From Candidatus Peregrinibacteria bacterium (GTDB lineage Bacteria > Patescibacteriota > Gracilibacteria > UM-FILTER-43-11), in contig DAOWGG010000029.1 in NCBI GenBank assembly GCA_030637565.1, forward strand, positions 1-14,492: a stretch of DNA of 14,492 bases, given 5' to 3'. Below the pieces are notes generated by a model. It saw only the letters and a program-made list of their open reading frames with translations. It made no database searches and had not been told where the DNA came from. Made by a program: the position numbers and the translations under genes. This document shows, piece by piece, positions 107 to 8,772 of this stretch. Every line of letters begins with the position of its first letter. Position 1 is the stretch's first letter.

Positions 107-193
107 AAACCCATTGCCCTCCCAGGACTGATTCTGTAGACCCGACATATCGGGACAGGATTTAGAGCCAGCCACCAGAGTGATGGGTTTTTT
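107..193 (+). terminator. Long branched hairpin ending in a T-run, probable terminator of the left-edge gene
   Basis: AAACCCAT at 107-114 pairs with ATGGGTTT at 183-190, and the run T188-T193 follows directly. Inside the arm are further stems: CTGA-TTCTGT (128-137) with ACAGGA-T-TTAG (155-165), and the perfect CCCGA/TCGGG hairpin with a CATA loop (141-154). An arm this long is unusual for an intrinsic terminator and may be a repeat element used as one. On the minus strand the same outer stem is preceded by an A-run, so it could work for only one direction. Confidence 0.5.
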
Positions 194-340
194 AGTAAGT
201 GGCGAAAAACGTGTTCCGAACGAAATGAGGACGACTAGTCCGAAATGAAGTAAGGATTCTGATGTGAAAATCTGCATGCAGATTTTTGCAATCAGGAAAC
301 GTTTCCCCATTGAGCCAGCACGGCACCATTCTAAAGGGGC
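194..340. repeat. Structured repeat, copy 1 (downstream of trxB)
   Basis: This is the most diverged of three related elements (others at 2585-2736 and 7998-8152). It opens with AGTAAGTGGCGA and has GTTCCGAAC near 213. Paired elements are GGAC/GTCC (229-232 with 238-241), TTCTGAT/ATCAGGA (257-263 with 291-297), the inner AAAATCTG/CAGATTTT with a CATG loop (267-286), and CCCC/GGGG (305-308 with 336-339) enclosing the box ATTGAGCCAGCAC. It lies between the stop of trxB and the terminator-like structure, so unlike the other copies it is not next to a start codon. Orientation of any transcript is unknown; a T-G pair in the third stem slightly favours the plus strand. Confidence 0.7.
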
Positions 341-1960: not shown

Positions 1961-2584
1961 ACCCTGAGCTTCAATCTTCGCCTTCACCACCATCGTATTG
2001 ATGATCGTACCACGTTCCATTTCACCCAATTTCATCTGGATGAACTTAATAGTATCTTCCAAATCAGGAATCATACGATATTCAAGCGCGTTCACACGAC
2101 GACGGGTTTTTTCGAGCTCATCCGCCAACGCTTCCGCTGATTTTTCAATCTCCGCCAATTCAATAAGTAGAGGAAAGACATCTTGGAAGGACTGAAGAGA
2201 CATGTCGAGCTCACCACTGGTCTGTAAATAACCATAAGTAATCACATCCCCTTCTGTTTTCAAAGTGAACTGAGGAATGCGAACCGACATCACGTTCTTA
2301 GTTTTAACTGAAAGCTCTGTTTTAGCGGTTGAATACAAAAGCGCTCCTTCTACAAATTCCTCAGACATCAAAGACCCTGCACGAATGAAATTCTTAAACG
2401 CTCCCCCTAATTTTTCCTCCACATCTTCACGGATACGCTTCGCTTCACGGATAATCTCCATGAATTTCTGCATCAGACCATCCTGCTTATCTTTAAGCAA
2501 TTTATGTCCGCGTTTAGCACCCTTGATCTTCTTTTTGAGACCGAGGAGAGCCATTCGAGTTGGATTGACGTTTAAGATCGCCAT
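1958..2584 (-). CDS. ntpD: V/A-type ATPase central-shaft subunit D
   Basis: A 208-residue protein that forms the rotating coiled-coil shaft inside the A3B3 head, linking ATP chemistry to the c-ring through subunits F and C/d. The family-typical start is VNPTRMALL (residues 6-14) followed by a Lys-rich helix containing KRGHKLLKDK; a second long helix near the C-terminus (about 140-195) completes the antiparallel coiled coil. The frame stays open 35 codons further upstream, but that extension is only the translated repeat element, so the ATG at 2584 is the start. It is separated from subunit B by 155 bp that the repeat fills almost completely. The bases before the ATG (CTACTTACC) belong to the repeat and include no Shine-Dalgarno site. 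Confidence 0.95.
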   Translation of the reverse strand: MAILNVNPTRMALLGLKKKIKGAKRGHKLLKDKQDGLMQKFMEIIREAKRIREDVEEKLGGAFKNFIRAGSLMSEEFVEGALLYSTAKTELSVKTKNVMSVRIPQFTLKTEGDVITYGYLQTSGELDMSLQSFQDVFPLLIELAEIEKSAEALADELEKTRRRVNALEYRMIPDLEDTIKFIQMKLGEMERGTIINTMVVKAKIEAQG

Positions 2585-2736
2585 GGTAAGTAGTGAGTAA
2601 CACGTTCCGAATGGAACGAGGACGACCGAATGGAAGTCCGAAGTAAAGTGAGGACTCCGATGTATAAATTTGCGAGCAAATTTGTGCAATCGGAGAGTGT
2701 GACCCTATTGAAGCAGCACAGGGCCGCTCCGCAAGG
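2585..2736. repeat. Structured repeat, copy 2 (fills the B-D gap)
   Basis: The element runs from the base next to the D start codon to 3 bp short of the B stop codon. In plus-strand order it shows GTAAGTAGTGAG, the hairpin GTTCC-GAAT-GGAAC (2604-2617), GGAC/GTCC (2620-2623 with 2636-2639), CTCCGAT/ATCGGAG (2655-2661 with 2689-2695) enclosing AAATTTG-CGAG-CAAATTT (2666-2683), and CCCT/AGGG (2703-2706 with 2720-2723) around the box ATTGAAGCAGCAC, then GCTCC. Copy 3 at 7998-8152 has the same order and the same junction with a start codon. It could act as an RNA element in the operon transcript, as an antisense RNA, or as a DNA repeat. Confidence 0.85.
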
Positions 2737-2739
2737 TTA

Positions 2740-4110
2740 TTAGTCTTTCATATATTTATCAATATGCTCAGCCTTCACACGTTTAAGCTCAGCTTTTGGA
2801 AGAAGTTTTAGAAGTTCCCAACCAATATCCAAAGAAGACTGAATATCGCGATCATCATATTCTCCCTGACGGATATATTTATCTTCAAACGCATTCGCAA
2901 AGTGCATATAAGCACGATCTGTTTCATCCAAAGCCGCTTCACCTAAGATCACTGCCAACTCACGAACGTCTTTACCACGAGCGTAAGAAGCATACAACTG
3001 ATTCATTAAACCAGCATGATCTTCACGAGTTTTATCAGGTCCGATTCCCTTATCTTTCAAACGAGAAAGAGAAGGAAGTACATCCACTGGTGGGAAAATT
3101 CCCTTTCGATGCAAATCACGAGAAAGCACCAATTGACCCTCGGTAATATAACCAGTCAAATCAGGAATTGGATGAGTGATATCATCTTCCGGCATTGTTA
3201 GAATAGGAATCTGAGTCACTGAACCCTCCTTTCCTTTAATACGACCTGCTCGTTCGTACAAAGTCGCAAGATCGGTATATAGATAACCAGGATAACCACG
3301 ACGACCAGGAACCTCTTTACGAGCGGCAGAAACTTCACGAAGCGCCTCCGCGTAATTGGTTAGATCGGTTAGAATTACAAGTACGTGCATTCCTTTTTCA
3401 TATGCCAAGTATTCCGCAGTGGTCAACGCCAAACGAGGAGTTGCAATACGTTCTACCACAGGATCATCCGCTGTATTTACAAACAAAACCGCCTTTTCAA
3501 TCGCACCGGTTTTTTCAAATTCAGACTGAAAGAATTGAGCCTCTTCAAAAGTCACACCCATCGCAGCAAAAACCACCGCAAAATCAGAACCATCTTTCAC
3601 TTTCGCCTGACGAGCGATCATCGCTGCAATACGGTTGTGAGGAAGACCCGCTCCAGAGAAAACAGGAAGCTTTTGTCCACGTACCAATGTATTCAAACAA
3701 TCAAGTGTAGAAATACCCGTTTGAATAAAGTCATTTGGATAATCACGTGAATAAGGATTGATCGCAGAACCGCTGATATCCAATCTCTTTTCAGGGATGA
3801 TTTCAGGCTGATTATCAATCGGTTTACCAGAACCATTAAACACACGTCCAAGCATATCCTCAGAAACTCCGAGCTTCATTGTTTCACCAAGAAAGCGAGC
3901 TTTCGCTCCCTCAGTAACCGCTCCTTGTGTGCTTTCGAACATCTGCACAAGCGCACGACCTTCAGAAGCTTCAAGAACCTTCCCGAGACGAGTGTTTTTT
4001 TCACCGGGCATCTGAATCTCAACAAGCTCTTCGTATTTAATATCTTCAACGCCTTCCACAACAACGAGTGGTCCGGAGACGGAAGTAATTGTCTTATATT
4101 CTTTCTGCAT
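2740..4110 (-). CDS. ntpB: V/A-type ATPase non-catalytic subunit B
   Basis: A 456-residue protein, normal length for the family. It alternates with subunit A in the hexameric head and supplies one side of each nucleotide site. The N-terminal beta-barrel begins near [10 protein letters not shown] (12-21). The position of the Walker A loop is occupied by the degenerate SGAGLPHN (152-159), with no Lys-Thr pair, as expected for a B subunit that does not hydrolyse ATP. The arginine finger that reaches into the catalytic site of A is R350 in PSLSRLK, the same number as in E. hirae NtpB. It follows subunit A by 88 bp and precedes D by 155 bp, both gaps filled with repeats. The leader is TTTACTTAAATC, without a Shine-Dalgarno site. 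Confidence 0.97.
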
Positions 4111-4130
4111 GATTTAAGTAAATTAGTTAA

Positions 4131-4190
4131 TAGTTTGTAGTTTGTAGTTTGTAGCAACCATGAGCTGCCAACTGTTAACTGTAAACTACA
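4131..4190. repeat. Inverted heptamer repeats in the A-B gap
   Basis: TAGTTTG is repeated three times in tandem (4131-4151, plus a partial TAG). After 15 bp come three degenerate heptads, AACTGTT, AACTGTA and AACTACA (4170-4190). AACTACA is the exact reverse complement of a rotation of TAGTTTG, so the two arrays can pair into an imperfect hairpin in the A-B intercistronic RNA. Confidence 0.75.
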
Positions 4191-4198
4191 GACAAAAA

Positions 4199-5965
4199 TT
4201 ATTTTTTAAGTGTTTGTATAGAACTAGCAACCTCTTTAGCCAAAGCTTCAAAAGCGTCCCAATTTCCTTCTTCAATTTCTTTCGCTTTAACAACCTTTTC
4301 CATCACACGAAGCTTCTTAAGTTCTTCAAAATCAAATTCTTCCTGTTCAACAATATCCTGAGCAGAGTTATAGATGCTCATAATACATTTAAGCATCCAA
4401 TATTGTTTTTTAAGAGAAGTGTATGCGTCTTCAGCATCAAACGCATTTTGGAACAAGAAATCTTCACGAATAGACTTCGCAGTTTCTAAAACCAAACGTT
4501 CTTTAGGACTCAAAGCATCCATACCGACCAAACGAACGATTTCTTCCAATTTAGATTCTTCTTGTAAAAGAGACATCGCTCCTTCACGAACCGCCATTGC
4601 ATCATCAGCCACATTCTTACCCCAGTATCCAGAAACGTTATCAGCATAAAGTGTGTAAGAAGAAAGCCAGTTGATCGCTGGGAAATGTCTTCGTCGAGCT
4701 AGGTTTGCATCAAGACCCCAGAAAACTTTAGTCACACGAAGTGTATTTTGAGTCACCGGTTCAGAAAGGTCACCACCCGGAGGAGATACCGCACCGATAA
4801 CGGTTAGACTTCCTTGTCGATCATCAGATCCAAGACATTCAACCGCACCCGCTCGTTCGTAGAAACCAGCCGTTCGGGAACCAAGGTAAGCAGGATATCC
4901 TTCCTCACCTGGCATTTCCTCAAGACGACCAGACATTTCACGCATCGCTTCCGCCCACCTCGACGTACTGTCCGCCATCAACGCCACGTTATAACCCATA
5001 TCACGGTAATATTCCGCAATGGTCATTCCTGTGTAAACAGACGCTTCACGAGCCGCTACTGGCATATTAGAAGTGTTTGCAATCAACACCGTTCGTTTCA
5101 TCAAAGGTTCACCTGTATTCGGATCTTTCAATTCTGGAAATTCCATCAATACATCGGTCATCTCATTTCCACGCTCTCCACAACCCACATAAACAATCAC
5201 TTGAGCGTCACAGTATTTAGCAATGGTTTGCTGAGTTACCGTTTTACCCGCTCCGAATGGACCAGGAATACAACCCGCTCCTCCTTTTGCCAATGGGAAC
5301 AAAGTATCAAGAATACGAGTTCCAGTGACAAGCGGTTCAATAGGCACACGTTTAGATTGAGACTTTCGAGAAATACGAATCGGCCATTTCTGAAGCATAG
5401 TTATTTTATGATGCTTACCATTTTCATCTTCAATCACAGCAACCACTTCTTCAACGGTTTTATTACCAGAGTGGATCTCAACAATCTTTCCGGAAATATC
5501 AACAGGAACCATGATTTTATGGTTGATCAAAACCGTTTCCTGAACCTCACCTAGAATATCCCCTTCAACAACAGCGTCTCCACTATTTACAACAGGTTTG
5601 AAATCCCATTTCTTTTCACGATCGATATTAGAAACATGAATTCCACGAGCGATAAACGCACCGGATTCTTTTTCCATCAATTCCAAAGGACGTTGGATTC
5701 CATCGTAAAAGTTTTCAAGAAGACCAGGTCCAAGTTCTACAGAAAGAGTTTGACCCGTTAAAAAAACAGGTTCACCAGGTCCAACACCTCCTGTTTCTTC
5801 GTACACCTGAATAGAAGCGGTATCGCCATCAAGGCCGATAACCTCTCCCACGAGTCGCTGATCAGAAACGTATACTACCTCGAACATTTTGGCAGTAGAC
5901 ATCCCTTTAGCAACCACGAGTGGTCCAGAAACTTTAATAATTGTACCTTCTTTATGAGTTGTCAT
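4199..5965 (-). CDS. ntpA: V/A-type ATPase catalytic subunit A
   Basis: A 588-residue protein, typical for subunit A and longer than F-type beta because of the inserted bulge domain (about residues 110-200). It hydrolyses or makes ATP at the A/B interface of the cytoplasmic head. The P-loop is GPFGAGKT (235-242) with the catalytic lysine K241; the catalytic glutamate is E264 in GCGERGNE (261-268); the motif [16 protein letters not shown] (328-343) follows. All essential residues are present, so the enzyme should be active. The sequence cannot show whether the complex mainly makes ATP or mainly pumps ions. The ATG at 5965 is preceded by TAATTTCTAATAATC, with no Shine-Dalgarno site. The gap to F upstream is 37 bp (49% longer gaps elsewhere hold repeats); this one shows only AT-rich sequence. 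Confidence 0.98.
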
Positions 5966-6002
5966 GATTATTAGAAATTAATGTAAAATTAAAAATTTAA
6001 AT

Positions 6003-6353
6003 TTAAGAAAGAATATCCATACCGACTGCTTTTTCTACAATTGCTTTAAGCTTTTGCAGACCGTAACCCGTTGTACCCAAATGACTGGGCAAAGGAATTA
6101 TGGCAGGAAGCGGATCAGCGGATAGTTTTTTGTAATCTTCCGGAGTAATATCTTTAGCAAACTCTTCCATAATAAATACAATCGCGTATTTATTCTTCAT
6201 TTCCCCTTCAACCTCCACCTTATCTTTTTTAAGAGAGTAAAGCTGTTCAACAGCCACCTTAGAATCGGTCACATACACAGGTTCAAGCCCAAGAGCTTTG
6301 AATCCAAGAATCGCTTCACGCGGTCCGATGATGGCCATTTTATATTGATGCAT
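6003..6353 (-). CDS. ntpG: V/A-type ATPase subunit F
   Basis: A 116-residue protein with a Rossmann-like fold that sits at the foot of the central shaft next to subunit D. The N-terminal strand and turn MAIIGPREAILGFKALGLEP (residues 6-25) and the C-terminal helix ending VEKAVGMDIL are family signatures. Three extra in-frame codons upstream begin with TTG, so the ATG at 6353 is the better start. Seven nucleotides before it on the coding strand is the 12-mer TAATTAGTAATT, found at nearly the same distance before rarA. It follows subunit C by about 60 bp; that gap also contains a small hairpin. Confidence 0.93.
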   Translation of the reverse strand: MHQYKMAIIGPREAILGFKALGLEPVYVTDSKVAVEQLYSLKKDKVEVEGEMKNKYAIVFIMEEFAKDITPEDYKKLSADPLPAIIPLPSHLGTTGYGLQKLKAIVEKAVGMDILS

Positions 6354-6360
6354 AACTTTC

Positions 6361-6418
6361 AATTACTAATTAGTCATCGCGAAACGAGACTCCGTTCGCG
6401 GAGTAATTACTAAATTAG
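6361..6418. repeat. C-F gap: TAATTAGTAATT and a small hairpin
   Basis: AATTACTAATTA at 6361-6372 is the minus-strand form of the 12-mer TAATTAGTAATT, and a diverged copy (AGTAATTACTAAATTAG) stands at 6402-6418. Between them CTCCG and CGGAG (6390-6394 and 6399-6403) form a hairpin with a four-base loop. In the operon transcript the hairpin would sit about 37 nt upstream of the subunit F start. Confidence 0.6.
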
Positions 6419-7422
6419 AGGGATAAAACGTTTTTATGAATATCGGCCGTTGGCAGTTGATTCAACTTACCAACCAAAACCGTTCGGAGGATCTGCATAT
6501 GATTTTCAAATTTCCAGAAGAATGCGAAAACAGGCTCTGGACCAAATGACATTTTTTTACTTTCTTCCATATAGCTCTGAAGCAATTCACTCATTTTCTT
6601 CTCCACAGAAAGTAGTGTTTTTTCTTTCAGGAATTCTTCGAGAACAAGAGCGAGCTCATCACAATGCATCTTTCTTTCAAGAAGCTGTCGAAGTTCTTCG
6701 TAACCCTTTTTATAGCTCTCAATAAAAACAGAAGCATCCACACGACCCCCTTCAAGCAAAATGCCTTCAAGGTGAATGGCTTCCTTCTTCAACTCTTTAA
6801 ATCGAATGAAGGTTTTCAAGTTAGTTAAGTCAATCAATCGCTGTAAATAACCAATAGTAAGAGGGCTTTTAAAGGTTTGAGCCATTGAAAGTGTCTCTTC
6901 TAAATAGTGCTTATCAACCAATTGGTCAACCATCTGAGAATCCCCTGTTCTTTCAAATTCTTTAGCAACATCAACCAAGGTTTCATGAAGCCCTTCTGTC
7001 AAAGAAGGAGTTTTTCCTTCCAACACAAACCGTTCCCAATCTTCAGCAGTTAAAGAACCCAAATCAACCAAAGCATGACTCACATCCGCGTATCCACGTT
7101 CGTTTAAACGAGCTTTTAAAGAAACCTTTAAATTGTGGAAGTCGTATTTCATCCATAAAAATCGAATCGCTTCAGCAGAAGGAGACATTTTTAGTAGAAG
7201 GGAAATCATTTTCTGAGTCGCATGAGTAAGAACTTTCTGAAATTCAGCAGCTGAGTATTCCCCGATACTACCGGAGATAAAAGGAAGATCATTCAAAACT
7301 CGGAAAGTTTCATCAGATGACTTCGCCTCAATCATACGTTCAACAAGATTAGAGGTAGGAAATTGAGTTTCCAAAGCTCGGAGTCTGCCAATGATGTAAG
7401 CGTAATCCGCTGAGTTAGACAT
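6415..7422 (-). CDS. ntpC: V/A-type ATPase subunit C (d-type, rotor cap)
   Basis: A 335-residue, largely helical protein with the length and N-terminus (YAYIIGRLRALETQ, residues 8-21) of the NtpC/AhaC family. It forms the funnel-shaped socket that couples the D/F shaft to the membrane c-ring. Sequence conservation in this family is low, so the call rests on length, all-helical composition, and position between E and F exactly as in E. hirae. Only 2 bp separate it from the stop of subunit E, so the two are probably translationally coupled. This is the tightest junction in the ATPase operon. The leader CTCTTAAAT overlaps the end of E. Confidence 0.92.
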   Translation of the reverse strand: MSNSADYAYIIGRLRALETQFPTSNLVERMIEAKSSDETFRVLNDLPFISGSIGEYSAAEFQKVLTHATQKMISLLLKMSPSAEAIRFLWMKYDFHNLKVSLKARLNERGYADVSHALVDLGSLTAEDWERFVLEGKTPSLTEGLHETLVDVAKEFERTGDSQMVDQLVDKHYLEETLSMAQTFKSPLTIGYLQRLIDLTNLKTFIRFKELKKEAIHLEGILLEGGRVDASVFIESYKKGYEELRQLLERKMHCDELALVLEEFLKEKTLLSVEKKMSELLQSYMEESKKMSFGPEPVFAFFWKFENHMQILRTVLVGKLNQLPTADIHKNVLSL

Positions 7423-7424
7423 AT

Positions 7425-7997
7425 TTAAGAGAATAGGAGTTTAGAAACTTCAAGTTCTGTCTTAGGACGAACGATTTTCTGAATAAGGTAAGGAAAAGAA
7501 AGATTGATTTCAAGCTTTCCGCTGGTTAAAACAAAACCTCCTTTAAAGTCGTGAGCTTCTTCTTTGATATGAAAATCAACATTGGCTTTTTCAAGCGCCT
7601 GCTCGGTTAGCTTGCGACGATCCGCAGGAACGGTTAAATTCCCTTTTTCAGCTGTCTTAGCAACATGCTTAAACATAGTCGTAACCAAGCTCACGTAATC
7701 ATGATCACTCAAACCGTTGAGTTCTTTTTCAACTTCCGCGTAAGTTTGATCGATGATTTCTCGTTTCTGTCGAAGGGTTTGACTACGACCTTCCATAGAA
7801 GCAAGGGTCTTAGACTTTTCAATAACAGAAGCTGATTGAGTTTCAATCTTCACTTCAATTTCAGCTTTTCGAGCTTCTGCTTTTTCATTGGTTTCGTCTT
7901 CGATCTTTTTAATCTCATCGTCAGCCACCTGCTTCATAAAAGCAGATTTTTTAGCAGCCTCGTCTTCGATTTTTTTGAGGATATCAGATAATGCCAT
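7425..7997 (-). CDS. ntpE: V/A-type ATPase peripheral-stalk subunit E
   Basis: A 190-residue protein that pairs with subunit G/H to form the stator stalk between head and membrane subunit I. The first 95 or so residues are a long charged helix rich in Lys, Glu and Ala. The C-terminal domain ends with the family-like GGFVLTSGKLEINLSF (about 154-169) and a final helix. An in-frame extension of 22 codons is open upstream, but it is the translated repeat, so the ATG at 7997 is chosen; its leader (CTACTTACT) is repeat sequence without a Shine-Dalgarno site, nearly identical to that of subunit D. The 181 bp gap to K is mostly repeat copy 3. Confidence 0.93.
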   Translation of the reverse strand: MALSDILKKIEDEAAKKSAFMKQVADDEIKKIEDETNEKAEARKAEIEVKIETQSASVIEKSKTLASMEGRSQTLRQKREIIDQTYAEVEKELNGLSDHDYVSLVTTMFKHVAKTAEKGNLTVPADRRKLTEQALEKANVDFHIKEEAHDFKGGFVLTSGKLEINLSFPYLIQKIVRPKTELEVSKLLFS

Positions 7998-8152
7998 AGT
8001 AAGTAGCGAGAAACACGTTCCGAATGGAACAAGGCCGTGTAGGCCGCCGTGCAATGAGGACAAATCTGATTCAATCTGCGGAATAAAATGGAGAAGATTG
8101 AATTAAATTTGAGTGTTTCCCTATTGAAACAGTACAGGGAAGCTCCTCAGGC
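7998..8152. repeat. Structured repeat, copy 3 (K-E gap)
   Basis: The element begins at the base next to the E start codon with AGTAAGTAGCGAGAAAC. It has the hairpin GTTCC-GAAT-GGAAC (8017-8030, identical to copy 2), GGCC/GGCC (8033-8036 with 8042-8045), CAAAT/ATTTG (8061-8065 with 8107-8111) enclosing ATTCAATCT/AGATTGAAT (8069-8077 with 8095-8103), and TTCCCT/AGGGAA (8117-8122 with 8136-8141) around the box ATTGAAACAGTAC, then GCTCC. The second and third stems differ completely in sequence from copy 2, yet both still pair, which supports a conserved structure. About 26 bp without features separate it from the K stop. Confidence 0.85.
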
Positions 8153-8664: not shown

Positions 8665-8704
8665 AGTTTTAAATTATTAAGAATTAAGAGTTATATTCAA
8701 CGCC

Positions 8705-8766
8705 TGTCTGCCGACAAAGGCAGTTTGTTACGTTGTAACGGCATCCCGAGACCTCGAGATAGCGTC
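8705..8766. repeat. Three small hairpins in the I-K gap
   Basis: CTGCC/GGCAG (8708-8712 with 8719-8723), GTTAC/GTAAC (8727-8731 with 8735-8739) and ATCTCGA/TCGGGAT (minus strand, about 8760-8743, one U-G pair) stand one after another in the 108 bp gap. The wobble pair in the third fits the operon strand. They could slow or process the transcript ahead of subunit K, which is needed in many copies per complex; that role is inference. Confidence 0.5.
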
Positions 8767-8772
8767 ACGACA

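Follow-up and report, generated by a model that had tools for sequence, protein, structure and literature searches.

A dispersed family of REP-like palindromic elements with one end at gene boundaries in Gracilibacteria

Three elements in a V-ATPase operon

The DNA analysed here (the window) is a stretch of 14,492 nucleotides, contig DAOWGG010000029.1 of a Candidatus Peregrinibacteria bacterium, and is contig 55 of a draft genome of 0.957 Mb in 167 contigs that is 79% complete. Its minus strand encodes a V-ATPase operon (Pfam). An earlier note, made from the sequence alone, had claimed a structured element in three copies at 194-340, 2585-2736 and 7998-8152. All three were found at these positions, and the hairpins that had been named are visible by eye. 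We report that the three elements are members of a dispersed repeat family, apparently mobile, and that most of the copies examined abut a gene boundary with one end, here called the right end. Throughout, open reading frames (ORFs) were called by script without a gene finder, presence or absence of elements and most gene names were judged by eye, and the genomes are drafts.

The elements are read here on the window's minus strand, from left end to right end. For elements 2 and 3 this is the sense strand of the neighbouring gene, a correction to the earlier note. The core of element 2 (2589..2710, minus strand) has its left end CAATAGGG at 2710 and its right end CTACT at 2589. A 4-nt tail, TACC (2585..2588, minus strand), separates it from the ATG (2584) of the V-ATPase subunit D gene (1961..2584, minus strand; Pfam ATP-synt_D, E 9e-60). 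Element 3 (core 8002..8126, minus strand; left end CAATAGGG at 8126, right end CTACT at 8002) is likewise followed by a 4-nt tail, TACT (7998..8001, minus strand), and then by the ATG (7997) of the subunit E gene (7428..7997, minus strand; Pfam vATP-synt_E, E 8e-8). Element 1 (core 198..312, minus strand; left end CAATGGGG at 312, right end CCACT at 198) lies after trxB, which was named from its sequence (Pfam: Pyr_redox_2). By eye, the T-tract (188-193) of a converging terminator-like hairpin lies directly at the right end of element 1; hairpin and tract were read together at 115..193 on the plus strand and would serve the gene ending near 90. In cmsearch against the covariance model described below, elements 1, 2 and 3 score 109.9, 130.6 and 119.8 bits (matches 191-314, 2582-2712 and 7995-8128, respectively).

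Elements 2 and 3 also carry an optional left extension (GCGGAGCGGCCCTGTGCTGC at 2713..2732 and TGAGGAGCTTCCCTGTACTGT at 8129..8149, both minus strand), the latter resembling that of the copy at the same site in a relative, G012. The CCC/GGG stem that the earlier note drew around ATTGARNCAGYAC lies partly in this extension, which was recognised in 21 of the 125 copies studied; 11 of these retain the CCC. By eye, the V-ATPase spacers at 4111-4198, 6363-6414 and 8665-8772 contain AT-rich repeats and short palindromes unrelated to the element.

Family, fold and covariation

The earlier note had staked its proposal on the existence of further copies and on compensation of stem changes, and both were found. 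Additional copies in the window's genome were detected by BLAST and pattern searches, and a covariance model (R1) was built from 28 aligned copies with both conserved ends, picked from 35 pattern hits. Run on the window's genome and its relatives, as had been proposed, R1 gave 18 matches in the former and copies in many of the latter; the elements are thus not chance resemblances. Matches were obtained in 14 of the 18 genomes of the window's family (E up to 0.05), the highest number in any one genome being 30. Of 192 genomes sampled from the class, 19 had matches (E up to 0.001; families f1, f2, f18, f19 and f23); this figure is a lower bound, since the filters were stricter than those of the family search.

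The fetched loci contained 130 R1 matches, five of which were dropped (four second readings of one place and one 31-nt fragment). The remaining 125 are neither a complete nor a random set, their loci coming chiefly from better scores, and a few are partial or weak (L011:1632, L144, L077, L090). With about 9 nt of flank counted, their length has a median of 134 nt and a range of 98-164 nt. Tandem copies were seen (C30, C108, G002 C26). Two divergent copies in the window's genome, G000 (L022:8-147 and L033:1497-1636, on C156 and C16), are 95% alike and have similar right flanks (TTGGGGCTCTG...AACGTTGT), and the element may here sit inside a larger repeat.

No element match was obtained in plasmid and phage records, and in virus contigs a 15-base pattern gave 28 hits with no convincing element among them (best E 0.11). 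Literature searches naming these lineages, made in open-access papers, returned nothing on such repeats. Rfam yielded only known RNAs (6S, tRNA, 16S) in 40 loci at gathering score and no match in the window at E up to 1. To this extent the earlier note was right that no named family applies, although the GTAG-tagged palindromes of the repetitive extragenic palindromic (REP) and REPIN type are a close known kind.

The core measures about 110-155 nt. On the strand corresponding to the window's minus strand (S), it reads 5' C-AATA-GGGAAACRC, the long hairpin P2, a UCCUCAYUNCAYU linker, P3, P4 GUUCCAUUCGGAAC and GYGUUUCUC-GC-UACU 3'. GGGAAACRC pairs with GYGUUUCUC (P1) and AATA with TACT (P0), with the GC bulged on one side; P0 and P1 join the two ends of the element and enclose the hairpins P2, P3 and P4. 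Fixed mismatches and the 2-nt bulge in P0/P1 make the ends unequal. The stem list of the earlier note was sound for the hairpins that it named but missed this outer closing stem (AATA-GGGAAACRC/GYGTTTCTC-GC-TACT on the minus strand).

Stems that stay paired while their sequence changes, the core of the original claim, are strongly supported by both alignments examined. The A4 alignment, whose 105 distinct rows were placed by the model and are hence biased towards it, has 588 double-change cells versus 170 in shuffles and 76-155 when the partners were slid by 1-3 columns, such cells counting sequences rather than events. In A3 (28 copies), there were 129 versus 43.5 in shuffles. The best support is for the outer closing stem and, in the long hairpin, for its outer portion; pairing in P4 is weak, at 68%. 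Variants of the P0 pair include AATA/TACT, AATA/TATT, AATG/CACT, AGTA/TACT, AATT/AATT and AACG/CGCT, and at its second position 81 of 104 rows have no pair, A-C being the usual combination there. Element 2 was the only one folded singly; on each strand its predicted fold is better than that of any of 200 shuffles (z -3.9 and -4.6).

In RNA, G-U pairs are expected to be commoner than A-C on the working strand. Over 108 rows, not counting P1's fixed G-U or P4's first pair, which is weak, G-U and A-C numbered 15 and 15 in P1, 9 and 7 in P2, 30 and 14 in P3, and 30 and 26 in P4. Copies in which S has the sense of the neighbour gave 7 G-U and 6 A-C in P1, and those facing the other way gave 0 and 3 on S, numbers too small for a judgement. 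In P3, G-U outnumbers A-C on S whichever way the copies face (13 versus 8 in sense, 7 versus 1 the other way), and P3 alone hints at an RNA on S. The fixed G-U of P1, present in 104 of the 108 rows, and the usual A-C of P0 point to opposite strands. Judged by these counts, the two outermost stems behave like a DNA palindrome with built-in mismatches, favouring such a palindrome over an RNA made from one strand. Single-sided intermediates are few in P1 and P2. Besides selection, this would also fit a mutational origin of the "compensation", with one arm serving as template for the other.

Right ends at gene boundaries

For each of the 125 copies, we took the distance between the final base of the CTACT box at the right end and the boundary that follows. 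A start codon follows in 43 copies, at 4 nt in 37, at 3 nt in three, at 2 nt in two and at 1 nt in one; one of these cases (L065:1195) appears to be a masked antisense tRNA. In 13 copies the neighbour is the 5' end of a same-strand tRNA, 3-6 nt away, and in 15 it is the 3' end of a tRNA or tmRNA on the other strand, 1-4 nt away. Stops of converging ORFs are found at -11 to +5 in up to 12 copies (for L051 this is doubtful, as a tRNA 18 nt off is the real neighbour), and another element is 6 nt away in four. Altogether, 87 of the 125 copies end at a gene border or another copy and are extragenic in this sense. Among the 38 with no assigned boundary, two are at 6S RNA 3' ends, one at a masked tRNA and one at a short ORF, and further copies appear by eye to abut promoters or terminators (e.g. 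L148, L137, L146, L158, L119). Copies occur in either orientation relative to genes.

The two ends were compared using tRNA ends and ORF stops within 200 nt. These fell at -12 to +6 in 42 of 77 cases on the right versus 5 of 65 on the left (Fisher p 1e-9), and stops alone in 14 of 43 versus 4 of 60 (p 0.001); this control is cruder than the boundary assignments, as at least four of its right-hand stops (in the window, L169, L086 and L179) belong to chance ORFs and the copies concerned abut something else. The left end follows no boundary rule, and the abutment is one-sided. The 4-nt tail has no common sequence and shows only a bias, towards T or A at its first position, C at its third and T at its last, and no Shine-Dalgarno sequence was seen by eye in the last 15 nt before the ATG of the start-codon copies. 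Since the boundaries differ in kind and share no sequence, it is function that defines the borders.

The right end also supplies stop codons. Of 11 converging ORFs read, five have their stop codon within the element; in four of these (L151, L163, L107, L117) it is the element's own TAG, and L138 uses a TAA further in. In L117 a complete SEC-C motif (1-19 of 19) ends on the last residue before the TAG. For GAPDH (L124) and GroEL (L177), the ORF stop codon starts 1 and 5 nt before the element, respectively. Pfam gave names to 7 of 10 converging ORFs scanned.

A variant of the element (L146, L158, L147, L140) has left ends CAGAAGGG/CAGGTGGG/CAAAAGGG and right ends that are mostly CGCATCT. By eye, it is flanked by a TATAAT box and by the ATG of an opposite-strand gene, whose 5' leader it would form from near the transcription start onwards.

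Turnover, mobility and placement

Of ten genomes read at the V-ATPase B-D spacer, where element 2 lies, only the window's (G000) carries the element and nine relatives lack it; at the K-E spacer, the site of element 3, it is present in two of ten (G000 and G012) and missing in eight, including G001, of the same genus as G012. The B-D spacer itself is completely different among the relatives, which points to fast spacer turnover in this lineage. In G005, two copies before rplN and rplB (named from sequence) are 98.4% identical, although contig ends are near and an assembly error is possible. The earlier note had offered either selection on RNA structure or a DNA repeat evolving by arm conversion. 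The DNA repeat fits better, given the dispersal, both orientations, presence and absence at orthologous sites and the lack of a G-U excess in the outermost stems; a role as RNA keeps a smaller likelihood.

Incomplete copies were sought with exact end patterns. The right-end pattern gave 56 hits in 18 genomes, and 12 judged incomplete by eye were fetched. Six are solo right ends 4 nt before an ATG (L265, L266, L268, L269, L271, L272); the ORFs that follow have 38 codons at L266, 50 at L269 and only 19 at L272, which is doubtful. L270 is near a tRNA 5' end by eye, L267 has no clear neighbour, and four are truncated or at a contig edge. In the mini forms L266 (G012 C11 near 122326) and L269 (G016 C23 near 919), a left extension ending in AATAG is joined directly to TTTCTCRCTACT, the whole P1-P4 core is gone, and the ATG follows at 4 nt. 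This suggests that the right end can be retained as a leader after loss of the left end. Four left-end orphans were also fetched, three of them inside long reading frames and probably due to chance.

The element shares several traits with known repeats. REPs lie mostly less than 20 bp from the 3' ends of ORFs, and GTAG-type REP ends often supply TAG stop codons to flanking ORFs, according to the portions of PMC3733652 drawn on here. In the corresponding portions of PMC8266576 and PMC3116915, two conserved stem mismatches are required for activity of an E. coli REP, and hairpin arms of REPINs show compensatory changes. Like GTAG REPs and their RAYT systems (PMC3733652, PMC8266576, as far as drawn on), the present family consists of dispersed intergenic palindromes near genes; one of their ends carries GTAG, on the strand opposite to S, in 82 of 125 copies. 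Its mismatches are fixed as in E. coli REPs, and its GTAG end is a source of TAG stops. In contrast to the single stem-loop of a GTAG REP (20-40 nt), the element has at least four helices, is three to five times longer and contains three inner hairpins; its GTAG varies along with its pairing partner, no RAYT locus read has a copy, and its abutment on start codons and tRNA ends is one-sided and mostly at 3-4 nt. Like REPINs (PMC3116915, in part), it is a hairpin unit of about 100 nt with conserved ends and a compensatorily changing interior, REPINs being thought to move as single-stranded DNA; unlike them, it has unequal ends (GTAG/TATTG), a closed multi-branch fold and tens rather than hundreds of copies. 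BOX, RUP and SPRITE of pneumococcus are small, structured, intergenic repeats resembling miniature inverted-repeat transposable elements (MITEs), BOX being modular with some copies expressed. BOX and RUP give target duplications, which were not detected here, and the portions of PMC3049150 drawn on describe no comparable boundary rule for BOX, RUP or SPRITE. The element is REP-like in its working and is not filed as a REP, since no RAYT locus read carries an adjoining copy and the RAYT-B profile is missing in three element genomes named below.

Integron attC sites have GTTRRRY/RYYYAAC boxes and an integrase beside the array; the end sequences of the element differ from these boxes by eye.

The GTAG end, the fixed mismatches and the compensatory interior match published REPs and REPINs, and a REP-like mechanism is the most likely one. 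We lean, by a modest degree, towards a non-autonomous mobile palindromic DNA element that is placed at boundaries. It would most likely move as single-stranded DNA in a folded state, with an HUH-type enzyme acting at its GTAG end. Surviving copies would be those whose GTAG end meets a gene boundary, with selection or end-directed deletion setting the exact position. At start codons the right end would have been turned into a leader just before the ATG, and this leader duty is likely a third factor, fixing the 4 nt.

Several observations weigh against this view. GTAG is replaced in 43 of the 125 copies, mostly by ATAG (12), GATG (9), GTGG (6), GTTG (4) or GAAG (4). The portions of PMC3733652, PMC8266576 and PMC3116915 drawn on give REPs and REPINs no 4-nt rule at start codons or tRNA ends. 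The 60 Y1/RAYT loci fetched, some of which overlap, contain no copy at E<0.01 (best 16.4 bits, E 0.076); PF01797 finds no Y1 in G000, G004 and G013, all with copies; and the RAYT-B profile is missing in G052, G127 and G182, which have 12, 6 and 9 element matches. No clear target duplication emerged (best z 2.7 over 60 offset/length settings, 122 copies), and when exact patterns for either end were searched in 18 genomes, no right and left end were seen by eye to bracket a gene, as they would in an autonomous copy. The excess of G-U in P3 also counts here, as does a solo left end, L276 (G006 C18 near 12503; CAATAGGGAAATCCTT), which looks like a left-end remnant and lies 5 nt before the ATG of a long ORF; retention of the right end is thus a tendency, not a rule.

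Y1/RAYT genes (PF01797) were found in 11 of the 18 family genomes, namely in 6 of 9 with at least five copies versus 5 of 9 with fewer. The RAYT-B profile (E up to 1e-10) matched 9 of 19 element genomes versus 19 of 173 others, a difference driven by family f1. With no flanking copies in the loci read and a poor match between distributions, a RAYT/Y1 partner is poorly supported. A RAYT-like protein of 183-189 aa (L192, L193, L190, L201) is common to G012, G001, G005 and G006, and its gene looks vertically inherited, since it adjoins a gene for a 381-419 aa protein in G012, G001 and G005. The target site duplications of a MITE moved by a DDE transposon were likewise not convincingly detected: the longest common substring was 3.39 versus 3.35 when shuffled (113 non-tandem copies) and 3.62 versus 3.42 (all 122, tandems included). 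A 9-nt repeat at L138 (CCACTTAAT) is a single case, and such repeats may be remains of tandem copies.

Two further explanations each have a low likelihood, clearly below that of the REP-like mobile element. According to one, insertion into spacers is random and the GTAG end then provokes one-sided deletions up to the next functional base. The left side does retain spacers, the boundary kinds are set by function rather than by a common sequence, and five converging ORFs, one after a complete SEC-C motif, have their stop codon inside the element; stops lost to the element's TAG favour erosion beside the GTAG end. However, the 98.4% identical pair and element 2, found in G000 only, are already exactly placed, which leaves little time for gradual loss and favours survival of border insertions, and no deletion was directly seen, the spacers of relatives being too different to compare.

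According to the other, the element is transcribed on either strand and its outer stem marks the borders of mRNA, tRNA, tmRNA and 6S RNA for processing or insulation, 3-4 nt off. The spacing to start codons and both tRNA ends, mostly 3-4 nt, the two copies at 6S RNA 3' ends, the solo right ends kept before start codons, the structure predicted for element 2 on both strands and the G-U lean of P3 are consistent with this, as is a weak clustering of sequences by context within genomes (46 of 74 nearest neighbours have the same context versus a permuted mean of 36; 41 of 2000 permutations were as high). Against it, G-U is not favoured over A-C in the two outermost stems, copies at stop codons have no spacing, others lie by eye at promoters or terminators, where processing is not needed, and at a given site some relatives have a copy and others do not. 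Copy numbers reach no more than about 30 in genomes of about 1 Mb, so most genes would also have to do without it. A riboswitch-like leader RNA upstream of genes, for which the covarying stems and the 43 copies just before a start codon could speak, is very improbable and was dropped, as the downstream genes look unrelated by sequence, many copies are antisense or at tRNA ends, both orientations occur, P1/P2 wobble pairs have no strand bias, and the window has no Rfam match.

Many bacterial genomes are shaped by small palindromic repeats, but little is known about how their insertion sites are chosen. In the present family one end, and not the other, keeps within a few bases of a gene boundary; this holds for several kinds of boundary and across a class of uncultured bacteria with small genomes. 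We tentatively suggest a boundary rule by which targeting or end-directed deletion puts the GTAG end of a mobile element at the last functional base of its neighbour, with use as leader or stop by the host following. It would span start and stop codons, tRNA 5' and 3' ends, tmRNA, 6S RNA, promoters, terminators and other copies, and we know of no other small bacterial repeat with such targeting or end-directed deletion. The start-codon copies raise the question of how translation begins, given that no Shine-Dalgarno sequence was seen. If placement is by targeting, this would be a new insertion rule. If it results from erosion and selection, each right end would mark the exact functional limit beside it, and the family would be a natural map of minimal gene borders.

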